64,000 bases of DNA from Alphaproteobacteria bacterium 65-37 (GTDB taxonomy: Bacteria > Pseudomonadota > Alphaproteobacteria > Reyranellales > Reyranellaceae). The stretch is from positions 47,804 through 111,803 of the forward strand of contig MKRV01000265.1 of the NCBI GenBank assembly GCA_001897995.1. Direction: 5' to 3'. The notes beneath the pieces are model-generated. The model saw nothing but the letters and a program-made list of their open reading frames with translations, made no database searches and was not told where the DNA came from. Positions within the stretch are counted from its first letter, which is position 1. Every line of letters begins with the position of its first letter. A program made the translations under genes and the position numbers. This document shows, piece after piece, positions 37,252 through 41,365 of this stretch.

Positions 37252-40200
37252 ATGCGCTTTGAGCGTCGGTATACGCAAGCAGGAAAATCGCCATTCGAAG
37301 GGGTGGCGTTTCGTGCTGCCGATTCCGAAATCCGTAACCCCGACGGATCGCTCGTCTTCCAGTTGAAGGGTGTGGACGTCCCCGCCGAGTGGTCGCAGGT
37401 CGCCGCCGACGTTCTTGCCCAGAAGTACTTCCGTCGTGCCGGTGTGCCCGCGCGCACGATGCACGTCACCGAATTGGACGTGCCCGACTGGCTGTGGCGT
37501 TCGGTGCCCGACGAAGCCGCCCTCGCCCAATTGCCGGCGGCCGAGCGCTACGGCAGCGAAATGAGCGCGCGGCAAGTTTTCCATCGCATGGCCGGTGCCT
37601 GGACCTATTGGGGGTGGAAGGGCGGCTACTTCGACAGCGAAGCCGATGCGCGTTCGTTCTACGACGAGCATTGCTACATGCTGGCGGCGCAATTCTGCGC
37701 GCCCAATTCGCCGCAGTGGTTCAATACCGGACTGCATTGGGCTTACGGCATCGATGGCCCCGGCCAAGGTCACTGGTACGTCGACCATCGCGACGGCGTG
37801 GCCCGTCGCTCCGACTCCGCCTATGAGCGGCCGCAGCCGCATGCCTGCTTTATCCAGAGCGTCTCCGACGACTTGGTGAGCGACGGCGGGATCATGGACC
37901 TCTGGGTTCGTGAAGCACGCCTCTTCAAGTACGGCTCCGGCACCGGCTCCAACTTCTCCAAGGTGCGCGCGAACGGCGAACGGCTGTCGGGTGGCGGCAA
38001 GTCTTCCGGCTTGATGTCCTTCCTCAAGATCGGCGATCGCGCAGCCGGCGCCATCAAGTCCGGCGGCACCACGCGGCGCGCCGCCAAGATGGTGACGGTC
38101 GATATCGACCATCCCGATATCGAGGAATTCATCGCCTGGAAAATGCTCGAGGAGCAGAAGGTGGCCGCTCTGGTCGCCGGCTCCCGGCTGGCCAATCGGC
38201 ATCTCAATGCGGTCATGAAGGCCTGCCTCGACACCGGCATTGCCGGTGATGGTGCTTTCGACCCGAGGCAGAATGCCAAGCTGCGGCGCGAGATCGTCGC
38301 GGCCCGTCAGGCCGAGCTGCCGGAGAACTACATCCAGCGTGTCATCCAGTTCGCACGCCAAGGCTACCGCCATATCGACTTCCCGACCTTCGACGTCGAC
38401 TGGGAATCGGAGGCCTACACCTCTGTCTCGGGGCAGAACGCCAACAACTCGGTCCGGGTCACCGACGCTTTCCTTCAGGCCGTCGAAGCCGATCGGCAAT
38501 GGGCTCTGACCGAACGCACGACCGGCAAGGTAGCCCGCACTGTCGGTGCCCGCGCCTTGTGGGACCAGATCGCCGAAGCAGCCTGGCACTCCGCCGACCC
38601 CGGTCTGCAGTACGACACCACGATCAACGACTGGCACACCTGCCCCGAGTCGGGCCGCATCAATGCGTCGAATCCCTGCTCCGAGTACATGTTCCTCGAC
38701 GATACGGCGTGCAACCTCGCCTCGCTGAACCTGATGCGGTTCCGCCGGCAGGATGGCTCGATCGATGTCGGCTCTCTGGAGCATGCCAGCCGCCTGTGGA
38801 CGGTCGTGCTCGAGATTTCGGTGATGATGGCGCAGTACCCGTCGCGCCGGATCGCCGAACTCTCCTTCGAATACCGGACCCTGGGCCTGGGCTATGCCAA
38901 TCTCGGCGCCGTTCTGATGGCATCGGGCCTGGGTTACGACAGCGCCAAGGGCCGTGCCATCGCCGCGGCGCTGACGGCCATCATGACGGGGACGGCTTAC
39001 GCCACCTCGGCCGAGATGGCGGCCCTGATGGGCCCCTTCCCCGGCTTCGACGCCAATCGCGAGGCGATGCTGCGCGTCATCCGCAATCATCGCCGGGCGG
39101 CCGACGGCGCCCGCGGCGGTTACGAGAGCCTTTCAACCCTGCCCATCGCCCTGGACGCCGCCAACTGCCCCGACGAGCGCCTGGTCGCGGCCGCCCGCCA
39201 TGCCTGGGATCGCGCCCTGGAACTCGGTGAACGGCACGGTTTCCGCAATGCCCAGGTCTCGGTGATCGCTCCGACCGGCACGATCGGCCTGGTGATGGAC
39301 TGCGACACGACCGGCATCGAGCCGGATTTCTCGCTGGTGAAATTCAAGAAGCTGGCAGGCGGCGGCTATTTCAAGATCATCAATCAGACGGTGCCGCTGG
39401 CCTTGCGTACCCTGGGCTACAGCGACGCAGCCATCGACCGGATCGTCGCCCATGCCGTCGGTCATGGGTCACTGGCGACGGCACCGGGCATCAATCACGC
39501 GACCCTGGCGGCCCGCGGATTCGACGCGGCGGCGTTGCAGCGGGTCGACCAGGCCGTCGCCACTGCCTTCGACATCCGCTTCGCCTTCAACCGCTACACG
39601 CTGGGTGACGCCTTCTGCCGCGACGTCCTCGGCTTCGACGACGCAGCACTGGGCGATGCGAGCCTCGACATCCTCGCAAGCCTCGGCTTCTCCAAGAGCG
39701 ACATCGCTGCCGCCAACATCCACGCATGTGGAACGATGAGCATCGAAGGTGCTCGCGATCTTCGTCGAGAGCATCTCGCGGTGTTCGATTGTGCGAATCC
39801 CTGTGGACGAGATGGCAAGCGCTGCTTGTCTGCGGAGAGTCACATACGCATGATGGCTGCAGCCCAGCCGTTCGTATCGGGCGCCATCTCCAAGACCATC
39901 AACATGCCCAACGCAGCTACGGTCGAGGATTGCCGCAAGGCCTATGAGATGTCGTGGAAGCTTGGACTGAAAGCCAACGCGCTCTATCGCGATGGTTCCA
40001 AGCTCTCGCAGCCGTTGTCCGCCATGCTCCTCGGCGACGACCTTGCCGCCAACGACGATCTCGCCGACATGTCGCCGGCAGCGCGTGCGCCGGTCATCGC
40101 CGAACGGATCGTGGAACGCATCGTCGAGCGTGAAGTCCGCGCCGGCCGCGAGCGCCTGCCGCAGCGCCGCAAGGGCTACACCCAGAAAGCCATCGTCGGC

Positions 40201-40947
40201 GGACACAAGGTCTACCTGCGCACGGGCGAGTACGAGGACGGCCGGGTCGGCGAGATCTTCGTCGACATGCACAAGGAAGGCGCCGCCTTCCGCAGCCTGA
40301 TGAACAACTTCGCCATCGCGATCTCGATCGGCCTGCAGTACGGCGTGCCGCTCGAGGAGTTCGTCGAGGCCTATACTTTCACGCGCTTCGAGCCTTCGGG
40401 ACTGGTCGACGGCAACGACGCGATCAAGATGTCGACCTCGGTGCTCGACTACATCTTCCGCGAGCTCGCCATCTCCTATCTCGGACGCAACGACCTGTCG
40501 CATGTCGAGCAGGCCGACCTTCGGCCCGACGGCGTCGGTCGCGGCGAGGTGCAGGGCGAACTGCCCGCTCCCGGCACGGATGCCGCCGAAGCTGCGGCCG
40601 CCGCGGTGAGCCGCATCGCCAGCGTCGGTTACATGCGCAGCAACCTTTACGTATTGAATGGCCGGACGGCCGGCAATGTCGCGATCGCCAACGAAGCGAT
40701 CGCGGCCGGCCCCCTGCCCAACGGACTGACGGACGGCCCAGCCGTCGCTACGGCGCACATCGCCAAGGCGGCCGTCGTCGGCGTCGCGCGCGGAGAAGCA
40801 TCCTCCTCGCCCTCGGGTCTCGCCTTCGAGGCGAAGCTCAAAGGGTACGAAGGGGATGCCTGTCCGGAATGCGGCAACTTCACGATGGTCCGCAACGGGA
40901 CGTGCCTCAAATGCACGACCTGCGGCGGGACCACCGGATGCAGTTGA
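37252..40947 (+). CDS. nrdJ: Adenosylcobalamin-dependent (class II) ribonucleotide reductase
   Basis: A 1231-residue reductase that makes deoxyribonucleotides using B12, independent of oxygen. Recognisable parts are the N-terminal [55 protein letters not shown], the active-site stretch [53 protein letters not shown], and the C-terminal zinc-ribbon CPECGNF...[14 protein letters not shown]. It has the large single-gene form typical of alphaproteobacteria. No nrdAB is in the window. The ATG at 37252 begins the conserved opening. Confidence 0.97.
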
Positions 40948-41025
40948 GCATGCGTGGCGTAGCGTACCAGCGTACCCCGGGGGCCTCACGGTTGGGGACC
41001 TCATAGCTAACCATAGGAGACAGTT

Positions 41026-41082
41026 ATGGCTGCTAAGAAGAAGGCTGCTAAGAAGAAGGCTGCTAAGAAGAAGAAGCAGTAA
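41026..41082 (+). CDS. 18-residue lysine/alanine-rich micropeptide
   Basis: A 19-codon ORF encoding MAAKKKAAKKKAAKKKKQ. Support is strong for its size: AGGAGA five bases before the ATG, a clean TAA stop, and repeats that preserve frame. All six alanines use GCT and all eleven lysines AAG, unlike the GCC/GCG-rich neighbours. The sequence resembles the tails of histone H1-like or HU-tail proteins, so nucleic-acid binding is plausible (inference). It lies 78 bp after nrdJ and 15 bp before the first of a series of hairpins. It could alternatively be a leader peptide for the RNA that follows. Confidence 0.6.
   Translation: MAAKKKAAKKKAAKKKKQ
41029..41073 (+). repeat. Three exact 15-bp tandem repeats in the micropeptide
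   Basis: The unit GCTGCTAAGAAGAAG occurs three times without a mismatch at 41029-41043, 41044-41058 and 41059-41073. Each unit encodes AAKKK. Exact copies suggest slippage-driven length change that stays in frame. Confidence 0.9.
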
Positions 41083-41097
41083 ATAGGTAAGGGCGTA

Positions 41098-41283
41098 GGC
41101 CAAAGTTTACTTTGGCCCCTCTAACCAACGCCTTTCGGCTTCCGTGTGGGTGCCCCTCTCGGGCCCCACCGGAAGCCACCTTACAGAAGACGAGCAATAA
41201 GCCGATCCGACGCCTTGGTTCGCCGAGGCGGAAAGGCGAAACTAGATAAAGCGTCCGGCGACCCAGGTCTGCCGGACTTTTTT
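41098..41283 (+). ncRNA. Candidate structured RNA downstream of the micropeptide
   Basis: Four stable hairpins in 186 nt. H1 41098-41117 has a perfect 8-bp stem GGCCAAAG/CTTTGGCC with a TTTA loop. H2 41137-41177 has stems of 8, 5 and 4 bp (GGCTTCCG/CGGAAGCC outermost) broken by single U bulges at 41145 and 41151. H3 41211-41230 has an 8-bp stem (one G-U pair) with a UUCG loop. H4 41253-41277 is the terminator stem. The density is far above the rest of the window. No tRNA-like end was found. It may be an independent small RNA or the 3' region of the micropeptide mRNA. No known family is recognised. Confidence 0.5.
41253..41283 (+). terminator. Intrinsic terminator
   Basis: Stem GTCCGGC/GCCGGAC, extended inward by GACC/GGTC around a CA loop with one unpaired T, followed by six T residues (41278-41283) and CTT. 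This is a strong Rho-independent terminator for the micropeptide/structured RNA unit and possibly for nrdJ read-through. Confidence 0.88.
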
Positions 41284-41365
41284 CTTGTGCACTGGATCGC
41301 AGTGCGAGGGAAAACGCCGTCTCTATTCGCCCTTGTCCTGGCATGATTCGCGCTATGCTGTAGCC

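Follow-up and report, generated by a model that had tools for sequence, protein, structure and literature searches.

An 18-codon open reading frame (ORF) behind the ribonucleotide reductase gene nrdJ is, from its pattern of substitutions, almost certainly a translated and selected peptide gene without annotation, and it lies inside a conserved structured RNA unit of about 340 nt. The window, a 64,000-nt stretch of the genome of Alphaproteobacteria bacterium 65-37, comes from the genus Reyranella, a soil and water bacterium. The initial annotation had pointed out the ORF and had overlooked the RNA unit that encloses it. We propose a dual-function transcript that would carry both a polycationic nucleic-acid-binding peptide and a regulatory RNA, and we give this proposal about an even chance of being right. 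The unit begins with a 5' hairpin and the ORF; behind them, covarying hairpins surround a CCCCUCUAAC motif that is nearly invariant, and a terminator closes the unit. The features are the following.

37252-40947, + strand: nrdJ, class II (vitamin B12-dependent) ribonucleotide reductase of 1231 aa, directly upstream of the micropeptide ORF
40979-41002, + strand: 5' hairpin A with invariant CGGUUG in its loop (helix 1; 92.2% of cells paired, 7 pairs varying on one side and 1 on both)
41015-41020, + strand: Shine-Dalgarno sequence AGGAGA, 5 nt upstream of the ATG, within the nearly frozen start region GCUAACCAUAGGAGACAGUY
41026-41082, + strand: micropeptide ORF encoding MAAKKKAAKKKAAKKKKQ and a stop, with third-position bias and intact in the relatives read
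41088-41135, + strand: stem P1 (arms 41088-41096 and 41128-41135; helices 2 and 3), enclosing hairpin P1a and the CCCCUCUAAC segment
41098-41117, + strand: hairpin P1a, GGCCAAAG/CUUUGGCC (helix 4; two-sided changes in 6 of 8 pairs, 97.8% paired)
41116-41126, + strand: conserved CCCCUCUAACC segment, near-invariant in the alignment, its 3' part single-stranded in the model
41137-41177, + strand: hairpin P2, GGCUUCCG...CGGAAGCC (helix 5; two-sided changes in 7 of 17 pairs, 97.5% paired)
41211-41230, + strand: hairpin E (helix 7; two-sided changes in all 8 pairs, 92.2% paired)
41253-41283, + strand: intrinsic terminator GUCCGGC..GCCGGAC UUUUUU (helix 8; 98% paired), with the T-run in the alignment

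The ORF reads ATG GCT GCT AAG AAG AAG ... CAG TAA, from the ATG at 41026 to the end of the TAA at 41082. Its product of 18 residues is composed of Met, Ala, Lys, and Gln only, with 10 Lys. Three exact copies of the 15-bp unit GCTGCTAAGAAGAAG start at 41029, 41044, and 41059, and a search with this unit that allowed up to 3 mismatches gave 7 matches, where 0.72 were expected (0/100 shuffles). The initial annotation was thus right about the three exact AAKKK units, and its likening of this Lys/Ala-rich composition to histone H1 tails is borne out. It had also described the codon choice as unlike that of the neighbors. This holds for Ala, whose codons are all GCT, against 6.5% GCT among the Ala codons of nrdJ, femAB, and clpA (P ~8e-8), and fails for Lys, where AAG-only usage is not unusual against a background of 87% AAG (P 0.24). 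High-expression codon bias was ruled out as the source of the GCT-only Ala codons, as the ribosomal-protein operon of the host genome uses GCT for only 10%. The exactness of the repeat at the DNA level is incidental, because AAA, GCG, GCA, and GTT are found inside the units of relatives. One pattern search of the host genome found no second AAKKK micropeptide.

The locus was present in all 36 other Reyranella genomes sampled with a 412-nt intergenic query, and a pattern scan of named genomes located it in R. massiliensis 521, R. soli, R. aquatilis, and the 'Enhydrobacter aerosaccus' records. A MAAKKKAAKK start occurs in 73/76 genomes of the order and in 51/51 of good quality; this pattern also catches other lysine-rich genes, and therefore the nrdJ-linked ORF was read directly at the retrieved loci. 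All 59 distinct Reyranella sequences have 18 codons, three units, an ATG start, and a TAA or TAG stop. The expected variation in repeat number between strains did not appear within Reyranella; in-frame variation was found between genera only. We rejected an unstable tandem repeat on the constancy of the unit number within the genus. Every genus examined in the order has a peptide of 18-22 aa behind nrdJ. Other genera on the Reyranellaceae side encode MAAKKKAAKKKAAKKKAAKKK, MAAKKKAAKKAVKKKAAKKK, and MAAKKKAAKKAPAKKKAAKKKK, of 20-22 aa with in-frame differences, and another family of the order encodes MAAKKKAAKKKATKKAAKKKKM, which also differs in frame. The M(A/K)n composition is kept across the genera through these length changes, while the codons change.

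The substitutions are concentrated at third codon positions. Among the 59 Reyranella sequences, the variable ORF columns number 1, 3, and 11 at codon positions 1, 2, and 3 (hypergeometric p 2.7e-4). On a tree constructed from the flanking regions of 58 of these sequences, the third codon position took 47 of 56 inferred ORF changes (binomial p 8e-15). The change rate per column was 0.98 in the ORF and 2.7-6.7 in the 5' and 3' flanks. Sixteen consecutive columns of the start region (AACCATAGGAGACAGT, columns A62-T77) had zero inferred changes in the 58-sequence set, so the ribosome-binding site that had been called strong is nearly frozen; a further sequence outside this set, L129, reads ACCACAGGAG there. 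The third-position bias and the near-frozen bases before the ATG are the reasons why we consider the ORF translated. Start, stop, frame, and ribosome-binding site are kept in every intact relative, in agreement with the earlier suggestion of a translated micropeptide missed by gene finders, and no loss of frame or ribosome-binding site was met in close relatives except in one contig. This contig (L037 of genome G033, a draft with 8% contamination) lacks three things together: the last nrdJ codons, the complete ORF, and the 5' portion of the RNA. The gap may be an assembly join, and a true deletion is also possible.

The gene upstream is well identified. The nrdJ product scores 2113.6 bits against NCBIfam NF005736 (cut-off 1737) and contains the Pfam domains PF02867, PF08471, and PF12637. 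Its stop codon is 78 nt from the micropeptide ATG, and a search of this interval for a sigma-70-like promoter found none, a negative of little weight in this bacterial group. There are further signals in and behind nrdJ. In the gene interior, synonymous codons of about 180 nt (window 39772-39951, + strand) are unusually conserved across Reyranella, with an identity of 0.78-0.89 against a typical value of about 0.63, and these codons are not GC-rich. This stretch is possibly an embedded RNA, a promoter, or an overlapping signal; lesser peaks lie at 40252-40371 and 40672-40791. In other alphaproteobacteria (L053-L078), a CCUCCY-type motif, for example UCCUCCCUGUAACU, stands just 5' of the terminator hairpin in the nrdJ 3' region at 15 of 26 loci against 5.4 expected from shuffles, the motif having been chosen post hoc. 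That region may be an sRNA-like 3' UTR.

Nucleotide conservation extends to both sides of the ORF, and the flanks are predicted to be structured. Folded as a single sequence, the 343-nt stretch reaches a higher stability than its shuffled versions (z -5.06). In the 58-sequence alignment, 95.7% of cells are paired under a 59-pair structure, a figure favored by drawing the structure on the single sequence L007 and read over related rows. Two-sided changes occur in 23 pairs (114 cells). The covariation score is 0.160, and 0/500 shuffles reach the score, the pairing, or the two-sided counts; sliding the partners by 1-3 columns lowers the pairing to 34.8-57.3%. The case for the proposed RNA structure depends on helices 4, 5, and 7 and their two-sided changes. 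A UUCG tetraloop is present in the terminator of many relatives, and a consensus terminator scanner with a loop limit of 8 did not report the terminator. Two other interactions were considered by eye. A pseudoknot of the hairpin-A loop GGUU with AACC of CCCCUCUAACC is unsupported across genera, where loop GGUC faces AACU, and a Shine-Dalgarno-sequestering hairpin CCAUA/UAUGG is without covariation and broken in some species.

The structure is kept beyond Reyranella by changes of sequence. In other Reyranellaceae genera, P1 becomes GAUUGGC/GCCAAUC, a wholly different sequence with the pairing retained, and a GCUUCC..GGAAGC hairpin follows P1 there too. A CGGU-loop hairpin resembling hairpin A was also seen by eye in other genera. 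Most species with the altered P1 retain CCCCUCUAAC, two having CCCCUCGAAC and one CCCCUUCUGAC. Peptide and RNA are linked in every Reyranellaceae genus where both were read. In L038, from the order's other family, the peptide persists and the CCCCUCUAAC motif is absent, so that the two are not strictly inseparable. Among 241 alphaproteobacterial genomes, the covariance models R1 and R2 matched strongly only in Reyranellaceae, at the micropeptide locus (R1 once per Reyranella genome), with two borderline matches elsewhere (E 0.03-0.04). A broad spread of the RNA over Alphaproteobacteria is thereby rejected. Rfam gave no match in the window at the gathering score and, at lax thresholds, nothing near that score at the locus; at related loci the only match was a distant tRNA in L154. 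A known RNA family was rejected on this ground.

Micropeptides with conserved flanking elements are not private to Reyranella. Gemmatimonadota, a betaproteobacterial bin, Limisphaera, an Eisenbacteria bin, and other alphaproteobacteria also encode free-standing micropeptides of the M(AAKKK)n type, each preceded by a strong ribosome-binding site. In one alphaproteobacterial family (f6; L212, L213, L217, L219-L224, L226-L231, L041), 15 species have Lys/Ala/Thr micropeptides of the MAAKKKAKKATKKK..KKKK type, 21-27 aa long with in-frame length variation, lying downstream of gatB at those loci whose flank was read. These loci have a common leader GTCGTTCAGACCCGAACAAACGATAGAGGAG and, in the 3' part, two conserved hairpins followed by a GC-rich terminator-like hairpin. 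The 3' hairpins show two-sided changes in 7/28 pairs, and none of the loci had an Rfam match. The Gemmatimonadota micropeptide MAAKKKAAKKKAAKKPAKKAAKKK (L148:4204-4278, and L181 on the - strand) is followed by a terminator hairpin only. Its two species differ by 4 ORF substitutions, all synonymous, with leader and terminator conserved. Since the neighbors differ and the RNAs are dissimilar, we favor independent origins of the nrdJ-linked, gatB-linked, and other micropeptides over homology, while the peptides themselves are too low in complexity to decide between homology and convergence.

Two longer Lys/Ala sequences were also observed. Some Reyranella (L042, L043, L106, L110, L112, L202) encode a second protein of 44-49 aa (MAAKKKVAKKKAVKKAVAKAKTK..SRKRR), which begins with MAAKKKVAKKK, has a ribosome-binding site of its own, and is followed by a conserved hairpin. 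Genus g226 (L085, - strand; G326) carries a tandem duplication of the micropeptide unit, in which the second copy encodes an H1-tail-like ORF of greater length, cut off by the end of the contig. Pfam and NCBIfam had no match for the 44-49-aa protein; for its 44-aa form and for the 21-27-aa micropeptide relatives this held even at E up to 1, in a scan whose minimum of 20 aa exceeds the 18-aa ORF.

Under the dual-function proposal, the 18-aa polycation would be encoded towards the 3' end of the nrdJ transcription unit, or on a separate short transcript, together with a structured RNA that closes with an intrinsic terminator. The peptide would be a free-standing histone H1 tail, either unfolded or an Ala/Lys helix. 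We infer that it binds nucleic acid; such a polycation would neutralize and bridge primarily RNA, including the RNA that encodes it. RNA is the likeliest target because the conserved RNA is the constant companion of the peptide. The RNA part with its exposed CCCCUCUAAC would persist as a terminator-ended regulatory or carrier RNA. It is likely a stable 3' product, released as an sRNA, and co-transcription with nrdJ is presumed.

The best surviving alternative, possible and on the unlikely side, is a detached H1-like tail directed at DNA or the nucleoid, with the structured RNA serving only as a protective or regulatory UTR of its mRNA. The AAKKK composition, the 44-49-aa protein with its MAAKKKVAKKK start, and the duplicate with the longer H1-tail-like ORF are in line with this, as is chlamydial Hc2, a DNA- and RNA-binding protein composed of lysine-rich pentamers (PMC2848022). 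However, covariation in a number of hairpins, together with a nearly constant single-stranded motif, is more than a stabilizing UTR would need.

A leader peptide is doubtful. Ribosome progress over the Lys and Ala codons would then switch the downstream fold and act on the downstream gene or the terminator, and such an arrangement would agree with an ORF that is short, has a strong start, and is trailed by a series of hairpins and a terminator. However, cis-attenuation of this Lys/Ala type is disfavored because the gene past the terminator changes between species, being of TetR type at 37 and FemAB-like at 20 Reyranella loci (the FemAB-like calls are based on homologous DNA, not protein identities; the gene in the window is PF04339). 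The amino acid composition is also kept across genera while the codons change, and the second lineage, at gatB, is in a different neighborhood.

We consider it slightly more doubtful still that the peptide targets another polyanion or a ribonucleoprotein, such as polyphosphate or the ribosome, and that the RNA is an unrelated neighbor. The extreme positive charge of the peptide would suit such targets. Among ribosomal proteins, bTHX and eL41 are very short basic peptides. A link to polyphosphate granules is reported for AlgP, which is histone H1-like (PMC9239181). The linkage of RNA and peptide in every Reyranellaceae genus where both were read argues against an unrelated neighbor. Finally, a purine-rich spacer in a non-coding RNA, unused as protein, would explain why nucleotide conservation runs on past both ORF ends, and it is hardly credible in view of the third-position bias (p ~1e-14), the in-frame length changes between genera, the TAA/TAG exchange at the stop, and the frozen ribosome-binding site.

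The dual-function transcript may have wider relevance. Tentatively, and as an improbable extension, there would be a recurrent unrecognized unit in which a Lys/Ala micropeptide of 16-27 residues is translated from, and acts on, the structured RNA behind it in the same transcript. Such a minimal self-encoded ribonucleoprotein would have been fixed separately behind nrdJ in Reyranellales, behind gatB in the other alphaproteobacterial family, and free-standing in Gemmatimonadota. Because comparable peptide genes recur in unrelated bacteria, the ORF seems to represent a neglected type of very small gene for RNA or DNA binding, and not a repeat of mere curiosity. To our knowledge, its 18 codons would rank it among the shortest conserved bacterial protein genes. 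Purifying selection is visible on this short repeat, and the polycation is tied directly to a conserved RNA. The whole class has likely been missed, as standard pipelines skip such short ORFs and mask them as low complexity. It offers a compact system for asking if a bare polycationic tail does specific work on RNA in the cell.

The conserved micropeptide-RNA unit appears to be undescribed in the databases and papers searched, and none of those papers was found to combine alphaproteobacterial nrdJ with a small RNA behind it. Dual-function sRNAs such as SgrS/SgrT and SR1/SR1P have a short ORF and an RNA element in one transcript. The Reyranella unit shares this pairing, with a putative RNA activity, and differs in that the sequences are unrelated. 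The bacterial H1-like proteins, chlamydial Hc1/Hc2 and Bordetella BpH1, resemble the peptide with its three AAKKK units in their Lys/Ala-rich pentamers. However, these are full proteins with repeat-number polymorphism (PMC2848022), whereas the micropeptides have 16-27 aa and the unit number is fixed within Reyranella (59/59). The micropeptide relatives have no H1-like match in Pfam or NCBIfam, and the 18-aa ORF is too short for the scan.

The CcaF1-CcsR1-4 system, the alphaproteobacterial CIN1 locus, is similar in layout. CcaF1 is a small RNA-binding protein of 71 aa with DUF1127, is co-transcribed with the four CcsR sRNAs behind it, and helps to mature them (PMC10253847). Both loci have a small protein gene and then an RNA ending in an intrinsic terminator as one unit, co-transcription being predicted for Reyranella. 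We rejected membership in the CIN1 locus, as the Reyranella ORF is an 18-aa Lys/Ala repeat behind nrdJ, its 21-27-aa relatives have no DUF1127 match, and its RNA is single-copy, in contrast to the four homologous CcsR sRNAs. The CUCCUCCC motif, characteristic of CcsR RNAs, is also absent from the Reyranella RNA (41083-41286), which has CCCCUCUAACC instead. By analogy, CcaF1-CcsR may serve as the nearest working model for a unit in which a small peptide and the RNA behind it belong together.
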